NCBI GenBank assembly: GCA_033875315.1
Contig: JANRJG010000019.1
Location: 1-49,454, forward strand
Direction of reading: 5' to 3'
Source: Candidatus Methylacidiphilales bacterium
GTDB taxonomy: Bacteria > Verrucomicrobiota > Verrucomicrobiia > Methylacidiphilales > CAZTYG01
Length of the DNA: 49,454 nt
A program made the position numbers and the translations under genes. Positions 31,725 to 38,814 of this stretch are shown here, piece after piece. Position 1 is the stretch's first letter. The number at the start of each line of letters is the position of its first letter. Under the pieces are notes generated by a model that did not search any database, had not been told where the DNA came from, and saw nothing but the letters and a program-made list of their open reading frames with translations.

Positions 31725-32786
31725 TCAAGCCGTCTGATGGGGGCGGCGACGGCGACGCCAGCCCTCCCCGGCGGCCAGCAACAACAGGACCGCCCCCGTG
31801 ATCCACGTCGAAGGTTCAGGCACCACGATCCCCGTGGACAGAGTGTTATCGATGTAGAAGTGCAAATCATTGAAATCATCGTCTGATCCCCCCCCCGTGC
31901 GGCGGGTGATGTCCTCGAAGGTGATGACGGATCCCGGGGAATTCGGGTCGGGAGCGAAGTTCGGATTGCTGGTGTTGCTTCCCACCGCATTTCCATTGTT
32001 GTTGCGTGTCGTGCCAAAAAAAGTGAATGCCTGGTCCAGACCCGTCCCTGCCCCTGCCGTGTCATTGCCCGGGTTTCCCTCGCTGACCGCAAAGAGCGGC
32101 CAGGCACTGGCCCCGGTTCCATCAAGGGCAAACGAGGTGAACGTGTTGTCTGCGGCGTCGTTCAGAAAGGCTTCTAATGAATTGTTGGGGATAATGAAAA
32201 AGGAATAAAACCGGCCGCCCTCCAAAGTCACCACATTGGTGTCGTTCGTGATGTCGTAGGTGTCGCCGTTTCCCCGGTCATGGTTGCGGGTTTGGTCATT
32301 ATTTGGAGTGGGAGTGGTATACGCATCATCCGTGTCCCGGGTCACTTGCTTGGCCCCGCTCGGCACGGTAAAGATCGCCGCTTGGTCGACGAAGACCACT
32401 TGGGCCGTGGAGAGCGCCTCGATGGCCCAGGCTTGTTTTTCGGCCACCGTGTCATAGGGCAAGGCCGCGAGAGTGCTGGTGACTTCGAAATAGCCGAATG
32501 AAAAAGTGTAGGCTCCATCATCATACAGAAACGTCATGTTGATCGACTGGGGGCCGGTACCATTGATCTGGTACAAGCCGTAATTCACCTCGTTGAATGT
32601 CCCGCCCAGCGCGTTGTTCCCGTAAACATCGGTCAGCGTATTGCCGATGTCGTCATAAGCGGGGTTGGTCGAGTTGCTCCCGTAGAAGACCGTGTCTGCT
32701 GGCAGGTTCATCACCGATCCCCATAAAAGGGCAGCGGCGGCACAAACCAGTGACTTGCGAATGGGCCAGGTACAGAACAATTTCAT
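31725..32786 (-). CDS. PEP-CTERM sorted exoprotein with DUF4114-like domain
   Basis: This 353-residue protein has a signal peptide (IRKSLVCAAAALLWGSVM). A domain with TGGGSDDDFNDLHFYID near its end is the acidic signature seen in DUF4114 proteins. A textbook PEP-CTERM tail follows: VPEPSTW at 322-328, a hydrophobic helix, then GWRRRRR. Exosortases recognise this tail and cut it after membrane transit. The mature protein is rich in N, T, G and D, as expected for a surface protein. It is transcribed away from creBC, and its downstream partner is the TPR gene. Confidence 0.85.
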   Translation of the reverse strand: MKLFCTWPIRKSLVCAAAALLWGSVMNLPADTVFYGSNSTNPAYDDIGNTLTDVYGNNALGGTFNEVNYGLYQINGTGPQSINMTFLYDDGAYTFSFGYFEVTSTLAALPYDTVAEKQAWAIEALSTAQVVFVDQAAIFTVPSGAKQVTRDTDDAYTTPTPNNDQTRNHDRGNGDTYDITNDTNVVTLEGGRFYSFFIIPNNSLEAFLNDAADNTFTSFALDGTGASAWPLFAVSEGNPGNDTAGAGTGLDQAFTFFGTTRNNNGNAVGSNTSNPNFAPDPNSPGSVITFEDITRRTGGGSDDDFNDLHFYIDNTLSTGIVVPEPSTWITGAVLLLLAAGEGWRRRRRPHQTA

Positions 32787-32960: not shown

Positions 32961-33680
32961 ATGCCCCGACACATCCTCGTGGTCGAAGACGAACCGCTGA
33001 TCGCGGACAATATCCACTACGCCTTGGAAACCGAGGGTATGGTGGCCATTCCTTGTGCCACGCTTGGCGAAGCGGAAATGCACCTGCGGGAACAATCTTT
33101 TGATCTCATCGTCCTCGACGTCAACCTACCCGACGGCAACGGCTTTGATTTTTGCCGCGGCCTCCGAACCCGCCAGTCCACCCCGGTCATCTTCCTCACC
33201 GCACGGGCGGCAGAAATCGATCGCGTGGTGGGCCTGGAAATCGGCGGCGATGACTACCTGGTCAAACCCTTCAGTCCCCGGGAACTCACGGCCCGCATCA
33301 AGGCCGTTTTGCGCCGGGGTGGATCCGCTTCCCCATCTACATCCCAGTTGCCTCCTCCCCAGCAGAACACTCCAACTGCCAGCAATGGAAATTTCTCTAT
33401 CGATGAAGATCGCAAAGAGATTCTTTTATCCGGGGTTGCCTTGGGTTTATCGCGCTATGAGTTCCGTCTGCTCAAGGTTCTGGTCGAGCGTCCCGGGCGG
33501 ATCTTCAGCCGCGACGAATTGATGGACCGCGCCTGGGACGAGCCCGATTCCAGCACCGACCGCACCGTCGATGCCCACATCAAAAAAATCCGCTCCAAGA
33601 TCCGCGCCGCCGTCCCAGGCGCCGACCCCATCGAGACCCACCGCGGTTACGGCTATTCCCTCCGGCCCACCCCCCAATGA
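32961..33680 (+). CDS. creB: CreB-like OmpR-family response regulator
   Basis: The 239 residues have a receiver domain (VVEDE, Asp-53 in VLDVNLPD, VKPFSPREL) and a winged helix. Close resemblance to E. coli CreB is visible in PVIFLTAR, VGLEIGGDDYLVKPFSP, LSRYEFRLLKVL and THRGYGYSLR. A longer, proline- and serine-rich linker (about 125-145) separates the domains. It should bind the TTCA[T/C] repeats at 35275-35321. It overlaps creC by four bases (ATGA). Confidence 0.88.
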   Translation: MPRHILVVEDEPLIADNIHYALETEGMVAIPCATLGEAEMHLREQSFDLIVLDVNLPDGNGFDFCRGLRTRQSTPVIFLTARAAEIDRVVGLEIGGDDYLVKPFSPRELTARIKAVLRRGGSASPSTSQLPPPQQNTPTASNGNFSIDEDRKEILLSGVALGLSRYEFRLLKVLVERPGRIFSRDELMDRAWDEPDSSTDRTVDAHIKKIRSKIRAAVPGADPIETHRGYGYSLRPTPQ

Positions 33681-35107
33681 AAATCCGCACCGTGGTCTTT
33701 CTGGCCTACGCGCTGGTCTTCGGCCTGGCCTTTGCCTTCCTCCTCCGCTGGGTCATCGATGGGTTGCGTCCCCGCTACTTGGAAGCGGTGGAAGAATGCC
33801 TGGTCGACACTTCCGTGCTGGCCGCCGAATGGCTGGCCGGCGAGGCCCGGCCCGACGGCACCCTGCCGACGGAGGTGTTGGCCGGCACGTTCGCCCGGCT
33901 CAAAAACCGGCGATTTGAGGCCTGCATCTACGATCTGGTCAAAACCCGCGTCGATCTCGATTTCACCGTCACCGACCGGAACGGGATTGTTCTCTTCGAT
34001 TCCGGTGACTCGTCCCGCATCGGCCAGGACTTTGGCAACCGCTGGCGGGACATCCGCCTGACATTGAAGGGAACCTACGGTGCCCGCACGACCCGGCTGG
34101 TCGAGAATGATCCCACCACCTCCGTGCTCCATGTCGCCGCGCCCATCCGGCTCAAGGGCGAATTGATCGGGGTCGTCTCTGCCTACAAACCCTCCGACAA
34201 TGCCGACCAGTTCATTGCCGGGGCCGCCTGGAAGATCACCCAGGCCGGCTTCCTCGCCACCGCCGTGGTCGTCCTGACTTCGCTCCTGCTTTCTTTCTGG
34301 ATCAGCGCCCCTATCGAAAAACTCACCGCCTACGCCCGCGCCGTGCGCGATGGTGCCAAGCCCCCCAGGCCGCGCCTGGGATCGGCCCGGGAAATCCGCG
34401 CCCTCGGACAGGCCTTCGAGGAAATGCGCGACACCCTCGAGGGAAAAAACTACATCGAGAACTACATCCAGTCCCTGACCCACGAACTCAAAAGCCCCAT
34501 CACCTCGATCCGCGGCGCGGCGGAACTCATGGGCGAGGACATGGAACCGGGGCGCCGGCAAAAATTCGCCGAAAACATCCGCTCCGAGGCGGCCCGCATG
34601 GCCCAGATCGTCGACCGTCTGCTCGAATTGGCCTCTGTCGAATCGCGCAAGAGCCTGGGCCCAACCCACCCCTTGGACTTGGTGGAAATTCTGCGCGACG
34701 TCTTGGCTTCCGTACCCGGTCTCCAAGGCCTTGTCATCGACGCCCCTCTTCCCGACACCCTCGCCTTGCGGGGTGAACGTTTTCTGCTCCGGCAGGCGTT
34801 GGAAAACCTGCTCATCAATGCCATCGAGTTTTCCCCGTCCGGCGGGCGCATCCGCGTGGACGCCCAACGTGATTCCAAGCATGTGGTCGTGCGAATCGAG
34901 GACGAAGGCCCGGGCATTCCGGACTATGCCCAGGAGAAGATCTTTGAACGTTTCTTCTCCCTGCCGCGTCCCGGGACACAGAAGAAAAGTTCCGGCCTGG
35001 GTCTGCCCTTTGTCAAGTTGGTGGCCGAGTTGCACGGCGGCACTGTCACTGTGGCCAACCGTCCCGGCGGAGGCGGCACCCGCGCGGAGTTGACCCTCCC
35101 AACCTGA
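33677..35107 (+). CDS. creC: CreC-like sensor histidine kinase
   Basis: This 476-residue kinase (E. coli CreC has 474) carries CreC-specific stretches: LTLKGTYGART, EGKNYIENYI, LTHELKSPITSIRGAAEL with phosphoacceptor His-269, and IFERFFSLPRPGTQKKSSGL. Helices at about 7-27 and 185-210 bracket a periplasmic sensor part. A HAMP-like linker, HisKA and an ATPase domain (NLLINA, DEGPGIP) follow. CreC responds to carbon or fermentation state and envelope stress in enterics; here the signal is unknown. No creD is present. Its place is taken by the VIT/exosortase pair. Confidence 0.9.
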   Translation: MKIRTVVFLAYALVFGLAFAFLLRWVIDGLRPRYLEAVEECLVDTSVLAAEWLAGEARPDGTLPTEVLAGTFARLKNRRFEACIYDLVKTRVDLDFTVTDRNGIVLFDSGDSSRIGQDFGNRWRDIRLTLKGTYGARTTRLVENDPTTSVLHVAAPIRLKGELIGVVSAYKPSDNADQFIAGAAWKITQAGFLATAVVVLTSLLLSFWISAPIEKLTAYARAVRDGAKPPRPRLGSAREIRALGQAFEEMRDTLEGKNYIENYIQSLTHELKSPITSIRGAAELMGEDMEPGRRQKFAENIRSEAARMAQIVDRLLELASVESRKSLGPTHPLDLVEILRDVLASVPGLQGLVIDAPLPDTLALRGERFLLRQALENLLINAIEFSPSGGRIRVDAQRDSKHVVVRIEDEGPGIPDYAQEKIFERFFSLPRPGTQKKSSGLGLPFVKLVAELHGGTVTVANRPGGGGTRAELTLPT

Positions 35108-35119
35108 GCCACACGCTGC

Positions 35120-35254
35120 CCTTGGCAGCATCGTTCCGGTTCGGAGCCAGATCGCAGCCTTGAAATGGCGTTGGATGGTCCGGTCCTTGGTCGCCAGCAC
35201 CCGGTCGAGGAGATTGTAGACATCTTCACGCAGCTTGGAGGGGGCTGGCGGCAT
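35120..35254 (-). pseudogene. Probable relic of a Phd/YefM-like antitoxin gene
   Basis: From an ATG at 35254, with GGAGG nine bases upstream, the minus strand reads MPPAPSKLREDVYNLLDRVL. This looks like the first helix of a small antitoxin (SKLRxxxYxLLDxVLxTG). After about 22 residues the likeness stops, and the frame runs on, antisense, through creC with no stop of its own. No toxin gene adjoins. I read it as a broken antitoxin start left in the creC-VIT gap. Confidence 0.35.
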
Positions 35255-35274
35255 CCTTCAGCCTCCGGCGTTTC

Positions 35275-35321
35275 TTCATCAATTCATGATCTATTCATCC
35301 CCGGTTCATCATCGATTCACC
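35275..35321 (+). promoter_or_regulatory. Array of CreB-type direct repeats
   Basis: TTCAT or TTCAC begins at 35275, 35283, 35294, 35305 and 35316. The last four are exactly 11 bases apart (TTCATG, TTCATC, TTCATC, TTCACC). The E. coli CreB target is TTCAC-N6-TTCAC, which also has an 11-base period. The array ends 62 bases before the VIT gene ATG and directly follows creBC, so CreB control of the VIT-exosortase genes is the natural reading. Confidence 0.7.
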
Positions 35322-35383
35322 GGCGTGTTGCAGGGTCTTGGGCGTCAACCAAACCCCAACCCCGACACAAGCAAAGGAACCCG

Positions 35384-37402
35384 ATGAAAACACCCCGCCT
35401 CCTCCAAGCCATCCTATCCCTCCTGCTGCTGGCCTGGGCCGCCCTGCCGGCCCACGCCACCAACCACGACCCCGATGACCACACCCTCTCCCCCTACTTC
35501 TTCGTACACTCGAGCGGGAAAGGCACGGAGCAACTCCCGCTCAAGTCCACCCAGGTCGATGCCCGCGTCACCGGCGTCATCGCCGACGTCGTCGTCACCC
35601 AGGCCTACGAAAACACCGGCACCGTCCCCATCGAGGCCGAGTATGTCTTCCCCGGCTCGACCCGGGCCGCGGTTTATGCCCTGGAGATGCGCATCGGCGA
35701 CCGCCGCATCACCGCGGAGATCAAGGAAAAGGAGGAAGCACGCGCCGTCTATGAAACCGCCAAGAAGGAGGGCAAAAGCGCCTCGTTGCTCGAACAGGAA
35801 CGCCCCAACGTCTTCAAGATGAAGGTGGCCCACATCCTTCCCGGCGACCACATCGAGGTCGAACTCCGCTACACCGAGCTGCTCGTTCCGGAAAACCTGG
35901 TCTACCAATTCGTCTACCCCACGGTGGTCGGTCCCCGCTATGCGGGCAACACCGGCGAGCGCGACCCCAAGGAACACCAGTGGGTGGCCAGTCCCTACTT
36001 CAAACAGGGCCAGCCCAGCCCGGCCGCCTTCACCTTCAACCTGGAAATCAATGGCGGCATGCCCCTGCAGGATGTGCGTTCCACCACCCACAAGATGAAA
36101 ACGGCCTTCAACGGCCCGGAACTGGTCGACCTCCAGCTCGATCCGGCCGAGGCCCACCCCGCCGACCGTGACATCATCGTGGAATACCGCCTGGCCGGCA
36201 ACAAGGTCCAGACCGGCCTCATCCTCCACCAGGGAGAGAAGGAAAACTTTTTCCTCGCCATGGTCCAGCCTCCGGTGCGTCCGCAGGACATGGAAATCCC
36301 CGCCCGTGACTTGGTCTTCATCATCGATGTGTCAGGCTCGATGGGAGGCTTCCCCCTCGACACGACCCGGGAGCTGATGAAGAACCTGCTCGGCAAACTG
36401 CGTCCGATCGACACCTTCAACATCCTCTTCTTCTCCGGCGGTTCGTTCGTGCTTTCCGAACAATCGCTGGCGGCCACCCCGGATAACCTGGAAAAGGCCC
36501 GGCAGGCCATGGAACAGATGAATGCCGGTGGCGGTACCGAATTGCTACCCGCCTTGCAGCAGGGGCTGGCCCTGCCCCGGGCGGAGAACATCTCCCGCAG
36601 CTTCCTCGTCATCACCGATGGCTATGTCATGGTGGAGCCCGAGGCCTTCGACCTCATCCGCAAAAATCTCAACCGGGCCAACCTCTACGCTTTCGGCATC
36701 GGGTCCTCGGTCAACCGCCACCTCATCGAAGGCATGGCCCGCGTCGGCCAGGGCGAACCCTTCATCGTCACCGAGCCCGGCGAGGCAGCGGCCACAGCCC
36801 GTCGATTTGCCGAGTATGTCTCCCGTCCGCTCCTGACTGACATCCAGGTCGCCTTGATGGATTTCCACGCCTACGACATCGAACCGCTCCGGCAACCCGA
36901 CCTGCTGGCCGAACGTCCTCTGGTCGTTTTTGGCAAATGGCGCGGCAATCCGTCCGGCGTCATCCGGGTATCCGGCAAGACCGGCCGTGGCTTGTTCCAA
37001 CAAGACCTTTCCGTGGCCGAAGCCGCCTCCACGCTCGACCACCCCGCCCTGGCCCAACTGTGGGCGCGCAGCCGAATCGCCCAGCTGGGAGATTACAACA
37101 ACCTGCAGAAGACCGATGATCGCGTGAAGGAAATCACCCGCCTCGGCTTGGAATACCACCTGTTGACCGCCTACACCTCGTTTGTGGCCGTGGACAAGAT
37201 CGTCCGCAATCCATCGGCCGGCCTGCAAAACGTCAAGCAACCCCTCCCTCTGCCCAAGGGCGTTTCCAATGCCGCGGTGGGCGAAGTGGGAACCACGCCG
37301 GAGCCGGGAGAGTGGATCTTGCTGGGGCTGGCTTCCGCCCTGCTGGCACTTTGGTCCTGGAACCGCCGTCGCCTAAACGCACACTCGGAGACCGTAGCGT
37401 GA
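35384..37402 (+). CDS. VIT/von Willebrand A protein with PEP-CTERM-like tail
   Basis: This 672-residue exported protein (signal MKTPRLLQAILSLLLLAWAA, cut near AHA) has a VIT domain at about 45-175 (VVTQAYENTGTVPIEAEYVF, Y-ETAKKEGKSASLLEQERPN). A von Willebrand A domain at about 308-490 carries the metal site DVSGSMGG (Asp-315). The C-terminus has TPEPGEW (638-644), a hydrophobic helix and NRRR. The same VIT-vWA plan is the single target of dedicated sortases in marine proteobacteria, where the tail is LPxTG. Here the tail is of exosortase type, and the next gene, overlapping by four bases, is an exosortase. AAAGGA precedes the ATG. Confidence 0.9.
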   Translation: MKTPRLLQAILSLLLLAWAALPAHATNHDPDDHTLSPYFFVHSSGKGTEQLPLKSTQVDARVTGVIADVVVTQAYENTGTVPIEAEYVFPGSTRAAVYALEMRIGDRRITAEIKEKEEARAVYETAKKEGKSASLLEQERPNVFKMKVAHILPGDHIEVELRYTELLVPENLVYQFVYPTVVGPRYAGNTGERDPKEHQWVASPYFKQGQPSPAAFTFNLEINGGMPLQDVRSTTHKMKTAFNGPELVDLQLDPAEAHPADRDIIVEYRLAGNKVQTGLILHQGEKENFFLAMVQPPVRPQDMEIPARDLVFIIDVSGSMGGFPLDTTRELMKNLLGKLRPIDTFNILFFSGGSFVLSEQSLAATPDNLEKARQAMEQMNAGGGTELLPALQQGLALPRAENISRSFLVITDGYVMVEPEAFDLIRKNLNRANLYAFGIGSSVNRHLIEGMARVGQGEPFIVTEPGEAAATARRFAEYVSRPLLTDIQVALMDFHAYDIEPLRQPDLLAERPLVVFGKWRGNPSGVIRVSGKTGRGLFQQDLSVAEAASTLDHPALAQLWARSRIAQLGDYNNLQKTDDRVKEITRLGLEYHLLTAYTSFVAVDKIVRNPSAGLQNVKQPLPLPKGVSNAAVGEVGTTPEPGEWILLGLASALLALWSWNRRRLNAHSETVA

Positions 37403-38814
37403 AGGAGGCAGGCCCCCGTCCTCCATTTGGAAACGCGGTTCTTCTGTCCCTCCCTTGGGGACCGCTTCCGGCCCCCGCCTTCCAACTCCCCCGTTGGGGG
37501 GTGTTGGCCGGCTTGGTTCTGGTTTTCTGGCCCTTGTTCGCTTGGTGGACAGGCCGCAGTGCGGGGGCCGCGGAAGGGGGGTGGCCCCTGGCCGCCCTGA
37601 TCGGGATCGTCTTCCTAACTCGATGGAAGACTTTTCTCCAACCGGTGGATGAGCGCACACTGGTCCGGCTGTGCGCCGGCCTGGCAGTGATGCTCCCGTT
37701 TCTGGCCGAGGGCAGCCTGCCTCCCCTGGCGAGAGGGCTGGCGGCGGCGGGTTTTGCCGCCGTGCTCTGGCACGGAACCGGGGCACCTCCCGCCCTCTGC
37801 CTGATGCCCTTTCTCCTCCTGCCGGTGGCCGACACGGCCGACTTCTATCTCGGTTATCCCTTGCGCGCTTTCGTGGCCGAAGGTTCAGCCTTGCTGCTGC
37901 GGACGCTGGGGGTTTATGTCTCGGTTTCTGGAACCGGATTGGTGCATGCGGGACGTGAGGTATGGGTCGATGCCCCATGCAGTGGACTCCGGATGCTTTG
38001 GTTCGGAGGCTGGATGACCCTGGTGGCCGCGACCCTGGCCCGGCTGCATTCCCTGGCTCTCGTCTGGTTGGGTCTCGCTGCCCTGGTTCTTTTGATCGCG
38101 CTCAACGTTCTCCGGGCCACACTGCTTTTTTTCCCGGAAAGCGGCCTGTGTTCGCTGCCTGCCTGGAGCCACGGGGCCATCGGGGCCGCTTGTTTTCTCG
38201 CTGCAGGCGGACTGATTCTTCTCCTGGCCCAGAGACTGCAATCGTTTCGCATCCCGCCGGCTGGAGAAACACCCCCGAACGCCATCAAACCCGCGCGCCG
38301 GGTGGTGCTCTTCTTCCCGGTGCTGTGCCTTTTCGGCTTGGGACTGACTTTTCTGCCGCATCCCGGTCCAAAGCCCGATGCGATCACCTCCACAGGATTT
38401 CCGGGCTGGCCTTCCAGCCTCGAAGGCCGGGCTCTTGAATCCGTGCCCCTTTCCGCCAAAGAAGCCGCTTTCCTGCGCGATTTTCCCGGGCACACCGCGG
38501 CGTTCCAAGATGAAGACGGACGTTGGATCGTGCGTTGGGTCACCGCTCCGACCCGCCGCCTTCACCCCGCGCGGCACTGCTTCGCCGGTTCCGGCCACCA
38601 GATCCAACCGGAGGGGATCGTTCGCGACGGATGGGAAACGCTCTGGGGAAGCTTTCAAGCCAGCAAAGAGGGTCAAACATGGACCGTGCGGGAGCGGATC
38701 GGTGATGCCGCGGGTAATAATTGGACCGATGTGTCGTCGTGGTATTGGGCCGCCGTCCTCGGTCGCACCCAGGGTCCTTGGTGGGTCTACACACGGATCA
38801 CCCAGGATAGCTGA
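37399..38814 (+). CDS. Exosortase fused to an EpsI-like C-terminal domain
   Basis: From the GTG at 37399, overlapping the VIT stop (GTGA), this is 471 residues with about eight helices in the first 280. The exosortase triad is visible: Cys-194 in DAPCSGLRML, Arg-239 in LNVLRATLLF, and His-258 in PAWSHGAIGA. After a helix at about 300-320, the last 150 residues include LHPARHCFAGSGHQI, which recalls the HxPxxCYxxxGW region of EpsI (DUF3485), an exosortase partner usually fused or adjacent. It should cut the tail of the VIT protein after export. The subtype is not assigned. Longer in-frame starts lie inside the VIT gene. Confidence 0.85.
   Translation: MKEAGPRPPFGNAVLLSLPWGPLPAPAFQLPRWGVLAGLVLVFWPLFAWWTGRSAGAAEGGWPLAALIGIVFLTRWKTFLQPVDERTLVRLCAGLAVMLPFLAEGSLPPLARGLAAAGFAAVLWHGTGAPPALCLMPFLLLPVADTADFYLGYPLRAFVAEGSALLLRTLGVYVSVSGTGLVHAGREVWVDAPCSGLRMLWFGGWMTLVAATLARLHSLALVWLGLAALVLLIALNVLRATLLFFPESGLCSLPAWSHGAIGAACFLAAGGLILLLAQRLQSFRIPPAGETPPNAIKPARRVVLFFPVLCLFGLGLTFLPHPGPKPDAITSTGFPGWPSSLEGRALESVPLSAKEAAFLRDFPGHTAAFQDEDGRWIVRWVTAPTRRLHPARHCFAGSGHQIQPEGIVRDGWETLWGSFQASKEGQTWTVRERIGDAAGNNWTDVSSWYWAAVLGRTQGPWWVYTRITQDS

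Follow-up and report, generated by a model that had tools for sequence, protein, structure and literature searches.

The window analysed here, a stretch of 49,454 nucleotides from a Candidatus Methylacidiphilales contig (JANRJG010000019.1), carries a two-component system beside the gene of a secreted protein and an exosortase gene. A short array of direct repeats lies between the sensor kinase gene and the gene of the secreted protein, its presumed target. The features of the locus are as follows.

32961-33680, plus strand: creB, response regulator of the OmpR/PhoB type (NF008296, 287.2 bits, cut-off 273; Response_reg and Trans_reg_C domains)
33677-35107, plus strand: creC, sensor histidine kinase (NF008312, 521.8 bits, cut-off 356)
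35272-35276, plus strand: candidate fifth in-phase repeat, degenerate TTCTT (11 nt before 35283, with one mismatch in five bases)
35283-35320, plus strand: CreB-box-like array, four TTCAY direct repeats with period 11 (sequence, pattern search and weight matrix)
35331-35336, plus strand: -10-like hexamer CAGGGT, starting 15 nt downstream of the first base of the last repeat and having both the conserved A(+16) and T(+20)
35373-35378, plus strand: AAAGGA, putative ribosome-binding site, 5 nt before the ATG at 35384
35384-37402, plus strand: secreted VIT and von Willebrand A protein (PF08487 VIT; VWA), the presumed target, with PEP-CTERM-like tail TTPEPGEWILLGLASALLALWSWNRRR
37312-38814, plus strand: exosortase (PF09721, 59 bits, cut-off 25.7), true start uncertain, the listed ORF overlapping the VIT gene

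The sequence-only reading had named the neighbouring kinase gene creC, and the name held: the curated cut-offs for CreC and CreB were both passed. The next-best family for the creB product, PhoB, scored 190 bits, under its cut-off of 296. RTVDxHIK, a stretch of the CreB recognition helix, did not vary among the 11 CreB proteins compared, including that of E. coli. In the CreC tree the window's protein formed a long branch of its own without supported close relatives, so that its position is compatible with transfer as well as with loss. Divergent from creB, on the minus strand at 31725-32786, is a gene for a DUF4114 protein (25.4 bits, slightly under the Pfam cut-off) with a PEP-CTERM-like tail, VPEPSTWITGAVLLLLAAGEGWRRRRR; no CreB array was found at its start.

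The start of the VIT gene at 35384 was chosen on the basis of its signal peptide and ribosome-binding site. The VIT protein was matched along its length by TIGR03788 at 420 bits, below the cut-off of 551.65. The Cys-Arg-His triad motifs PCSGLR, NVLRAT and SHGAIG are visible in the exosortase ORF. Assignment of this enzyme to a named Xrt class was rejected, as all NCBIfam cut-offs were missed (best XrtQ 100, XrtT 84 and XrtO 58 bits; membership of exosortase Q, NF012182, failed with 100.3 against 270 bits). Because the class cut-offs were missed, neither protein is named more closely. In the genome that contains the window, four exosortase genes pass the Pfam cut-off, one of them listed as two pieces among the matches, and there is one weak match; the matches lie on contigs C15, C41, C3, C19 and C12 (genome G000), making the window's exosortase one of several.

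A TTCAY array with an 11-nt period

Direct reading of the plus strand gave TTCATG at 35283, TTCATC at 35294, TTCATC at 35305 and TTCACC at 35316, in steps of 11 nt, exactly the four positions and the phasing described from the sequence alone. A further TTCATC noted at 35275 is present but out of phase, 8 nt before 35283; the span first given, 35275-35321, had thus joined one out-of-phase match to the four-copy array at 35283-35320. Degenerate end copies, like the candidate fifth repeat, are also seen in the arrays of several relatives. The array follows creC, which ends at 35107, and lies 64 nt before the VIT start, a placement that is conserved in relatives.

TTCAY-N6-TTCAY pairs occurred three times in the window against 0.29 expected, a count reached by none of 100 shuffles. 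Across the 3.15-Mb genome, an exact period-11 TTCAY triple was present in a single place, the array, and pairs were not enriched (23, three of them inside the array, against approximately 18 from the scaled window shuffle rate). One of these sites was counted twice because the ends of contigs C2 and C18 (L003 and L014) share the same stretch of about 150 bases, most likely where the assembly broke at a repeat. In the proposed genome scan for further sites, pairs thus fell at about chance and the triple was unique to the array: only the multi-copy array is informative.

A four-copy run is expected by chance 2.6e-6 times per window and approximately 1.6e-4 times per genome, and the latter value refuted a chance origin of the array. 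The TTCATC runs could also be a low-complexity coding repeat inside an upstream-extended ORF, 35165-37402 (SSIHDLFIPGSSSIHRR), given that this reading frame stays open as far back as an ATG at 35165. Against this, the signal peptide starts at 35384 with AAAGGA before it, homologous VIT proteins align from 35384, and the repeats recur before unrelated genes (creD and creB), so that a chance or coding repeat is hardly credible as an explanation.

A 44-nt weight matrix was trained on 30 arrays from other genomes, with the window excluded. It scored 31.8 bits at 35294; the runner-up in the window scored 3.2 bits and the best of 2.95 million background positions 23.4 bits. A search for strong CreB sites elsewhere in the window's genome yielded none with zero or one mismatch and one with two, the rest having three, and the control gave five matches. 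There was no useful matrix score before the window's own creB. Of the CreB targets predicted in this genome, the VIT-exosortase operon alone is a strong one.

Arrays at creBC loci and VIT genes of the phylum

A search of 387 genomes of the phylum identified CreC over the cut-off in 58, the window's genome included, and a fragmentary match below the cut-off in one more. Within the window's order, CreC was found in one of 62 genomes, the window's own. When the 58 creBC loci were compared, period-11 TTCAY runs on the creBC strand reached at least three copies in 19 and at least two copies in 32, and were located between creC and the next gene or directly before creB. In the controls, runs of at least three copies were found in no more than one locus, both for other periods from 6 to 25 and for other words of a 4-mer plus Y or R. 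The remaining 26 loci lacked even an exact two-copy run; some of them carry an array at another promoter. TTCAT and TTCAC mix freely in the arrays of relatives, and the wider TTCAY was used for the element for that reason.

Thirty-one arrays with at least three repeats (the window included, degenerate end copies allowed) were aligned on their last repeat. A -10-like hexamer, (T/C)ANNNT, starts 15 nt downstream of the first base of the last TTCA, with A(+16) in 27/31 and T(+20) in 29/31. Among 39 further arrays from named genomes, A(+16) was present in 33 and T(+20) in 27.

A search for VIT relatives with back-translated peptides of the single protein returned 19 stretches, none of which was confirmed. 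Twelve close VIT homologues (44-54% identity, own protein excluded) were found in the 386 other genomes, all 12 in CreC-positive genomes (hypergeometric 4.6e-11, with related genomes not being independent). Nine of these genes lie on contigs other than that of creBC, and all nine had an array of 17-37 bits whose first base lay 51-173 nt upstream of the matched VIT sequence. VIT genes from CreC-less genomes had an array in 0/13 cases, with scores all at or below -0.9 bits (Fisher 2.0e-6 against the unlinked nine, calculated by hand), although these genes were also more distant (25-39% identity). Absence of the repeats upstream of orthologous VIT genes had been named beforehand as the outcome that would count against a binding site; the repeats were present at every unlinked close homologue and, as described below, in other phyla. 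No array was found directly upstream of distant VIT genes (25-32% identity) in four CreC-positive genomes, and at the linked VIT locus of genome G270 the array stands before creB, not VIT, where the score was 2.4 bits.

Three exact repeats together with A(+16) and T(+20) occurred in 27/59 CreC-positive genomes and 14/328 others (Fisher 1.8e-15), and the reversed-pattern control gave 0 in all 387 genomes. One conserved site in one genus accounts for 8 of those 14 genomes; some other pattern sites fall within open frames or precede unrelated genes and may be chance occurrences. A conserved TTCAC/TTCAT period-11 triple, TTCACTTCACTTTCATCCGTAATTCATGATAAAACATGAATGT, is present in genus g17, which is without CreC, at G081:C1:323491-323533 (L324) and in seven further genomes; the triple at L324 directly precedes an ORF resembling an ECF sigma factor.

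creD, other phyla and known systems

Sites away from creBC in three genomes (G104, G144 and G432) precede creD (PF06123), the canonical CreB target. The E. coli creD promoter reads TTCAC-N6-TTCAC-N5-TTCAA, with CATAGT following 15 nt from the first base of the last of these; the spacing between the last TTCA and a -10-like hexamer is thus the same as in the window. The creD gene of the window's genome (contig C1:44566-45870, L328; 494.5 bits) is unlinked to creBC and had no array; by eye its upstream region, TTGACG...GAGGAT, resembles an ordinary promoter. The canonical CreB target is therefore not shared in this genome, against expectation, and the array-less creD suggests that the regulon has been rewired.

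Beyond the phylum, 80 named loci were taken from the CreC alignment. Arrays before VIT genes were also found in Desulfobacterota, in Pseudomonadota (Methylomonas and Comamonadaceae) and in Bdellovibrionota (a Bdellovibrionales bin), in line with the conservation across phyla that the sequence-only reading had raised. In Methylomonas, Comamonadaceae and the Bdellovibrionales bin, an XrtQ-like exosortase, under the model cut-off, follows the VIT gene. Loci of the Desulfobacterota type (L164, L165, L168, L172, L188, L191, L192 and others) have, on one strand, an array, a VIT gene with a PEP-CTERM tail, an intervening gene, creB and creC; in L164 the intervening gene encodes exosortase K (XrtK, 125 bits, cut-off 55). 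As in the window, the array in these Desulfobacterota operons precedes a PEP-CTERM VIT gene, with exosortase and creBC in one stretch; the operons differ in having XrtK and the order VIT-xrtK-creB-creC, whereas creBC comes first in the window.

The cre/blr tag TTCACN6TTCAC of E. coli CreBC, Aeromonas BlrAB, P. aeruginosa and S. maltophilia is described as critical for CreB/BlrA binding (PMC4689548). The window's array has the same word and 11-nt period, as had been proposed for the E. coli tag, and stands at promoter distance upstream of a presumed regulated gene adjacent to creBC. It differs from the tag in having four (or five) copies instead of two, in also using TTCAT, in occurring outside Pseudomonadota, and in its location on a VIT-exosortase operon and not on creD. 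A strict TTCAC-N6-TTCAC is absent from the window, where three copies are TTCAT and only the last is TTCAC. The class of element is thus known, and the array is an extended multi-repeat form of it; the likeness to the two-copy E. coli tag is better described as an array of three to five copies at a fixed distance from the -10 element. The proteobacterial dedicated sortase system (TIGR03785/03787/03788) likewise places a two-component pair beside a VIT/vWA surface protein and a sorting enzyme. In the window its cut-offs were missed (124/612, 143/336 and 420/552 bits, respectively), the sorting enzyme is an exosortase, and the surface protein ends in a PEP-CTERM-like tail. In the literature searched, mostly without subscription journals, no report was found of CreBC with an exosortase or in Verrucomicrobia, nor of an array of this length, the use of TTCAT, an occurrence in several phyla or a VIT-exosortase target.

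In the pho box bound by PhoB in E. coli, 11-bp direct repeats with the half-site CTGTCAY are arranged head to tail at a fixed distance from the -10 element, which in PhoB promoters is similarly placed after the last half-site. The arrangement in the window is the same, and the regulator belongs to the same OmpR/PhoB family. Direct repeats of 11 bp with a nearby -10 element are general in this family, and the window's genome has at least 21 kinase matches, so the array might be the operator of another OmpR/PhoB-type regulator, for example PhoB, with the adjacency of creBC coincidental. This is very unlikely. Arrays track CreC across genomes, unlinked VIT genes have arrays only where CreC is present, and arrays also stand before creD. 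The repeated word TTCAY is that of CreB and not the pho-box word CTGTCAT; the array has A, A, G and A two positions before TCA and so does not match CTGTCAY half-sites. The neighbouring regulator passes the CreB cut-off and not that for PhoB.

A predicted CreB-activated promoter

The repeats very probably serve as the operator in a promoter from which CreB activates the VIT/vWA-exosortase operon. This prediction is based on the conservation of arrays at creBC loci, their placement before VIT genes whether linked to creBC or not, the fixed distance to the -10 element, and the conservation of the helix with which CreB reads DNA. CreB in its phosphorylated form would occupy the 11-bp direct repeats in head-to-tail orientation, spaced by one turn of the helix, in the manner of PhoB on pho boxes. 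CreB dimers covering the repeats on one face of the helix would then substitute for a -35 element, with RNA polymerase engaging the -10 element at 35331-35336 and transcription starting near 35343. The exosortase would probably be co-transcribed with the VIT gene, such that a signal sensed by CreC would switch on both the surface protein and its sorting enzyme.

Both the binding of CreB to the array and activation rather than repression are predictions drawn from sequence comparison. CreB might instead bind the array and mainly repress, or have mixed effects, as reported for S. maltophilia creD, where inactivation of creBC led to a 3.8-fold higher creD transcript (PMC4689548). The geometry argues otherwise: the last repeat ends approximately 10 nt before the -10 element, and a good -35 element is neither seen nor needed, an arrangement that belongs to activators in this family. 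Activated CreBC, moreover, raises creD in E. coli and P. aeruginosa (PMC4689548). Predominant repression is therefore considered unlikely, and activation by CreB remains the preferred reading.

Even in E. coli, what CreBC does is poorly understood. With a CreB operator recognisable from its sequence across many phyla, as at least three TTCAY repeats with period 11 and a -10 element at +15, the regulon could be read from genomes. The array would also link CreBC to surface proteins sorted by exosortases, a group about whose control and function much is still to be learned. We tentatively suggest that control of exosortase-sorted VIT proteins may be a widespread, perhaps older, function of CreBC over several phyla. 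The creD regulon of E. coli and Pseudomonas would then be one branch, and in the lineage of the window the regulon would have shrunk to this operon, with loss of the creD array. If CreB activates the operon, creB mutants of a cultured relative would be expected to lose VIT operon expression.
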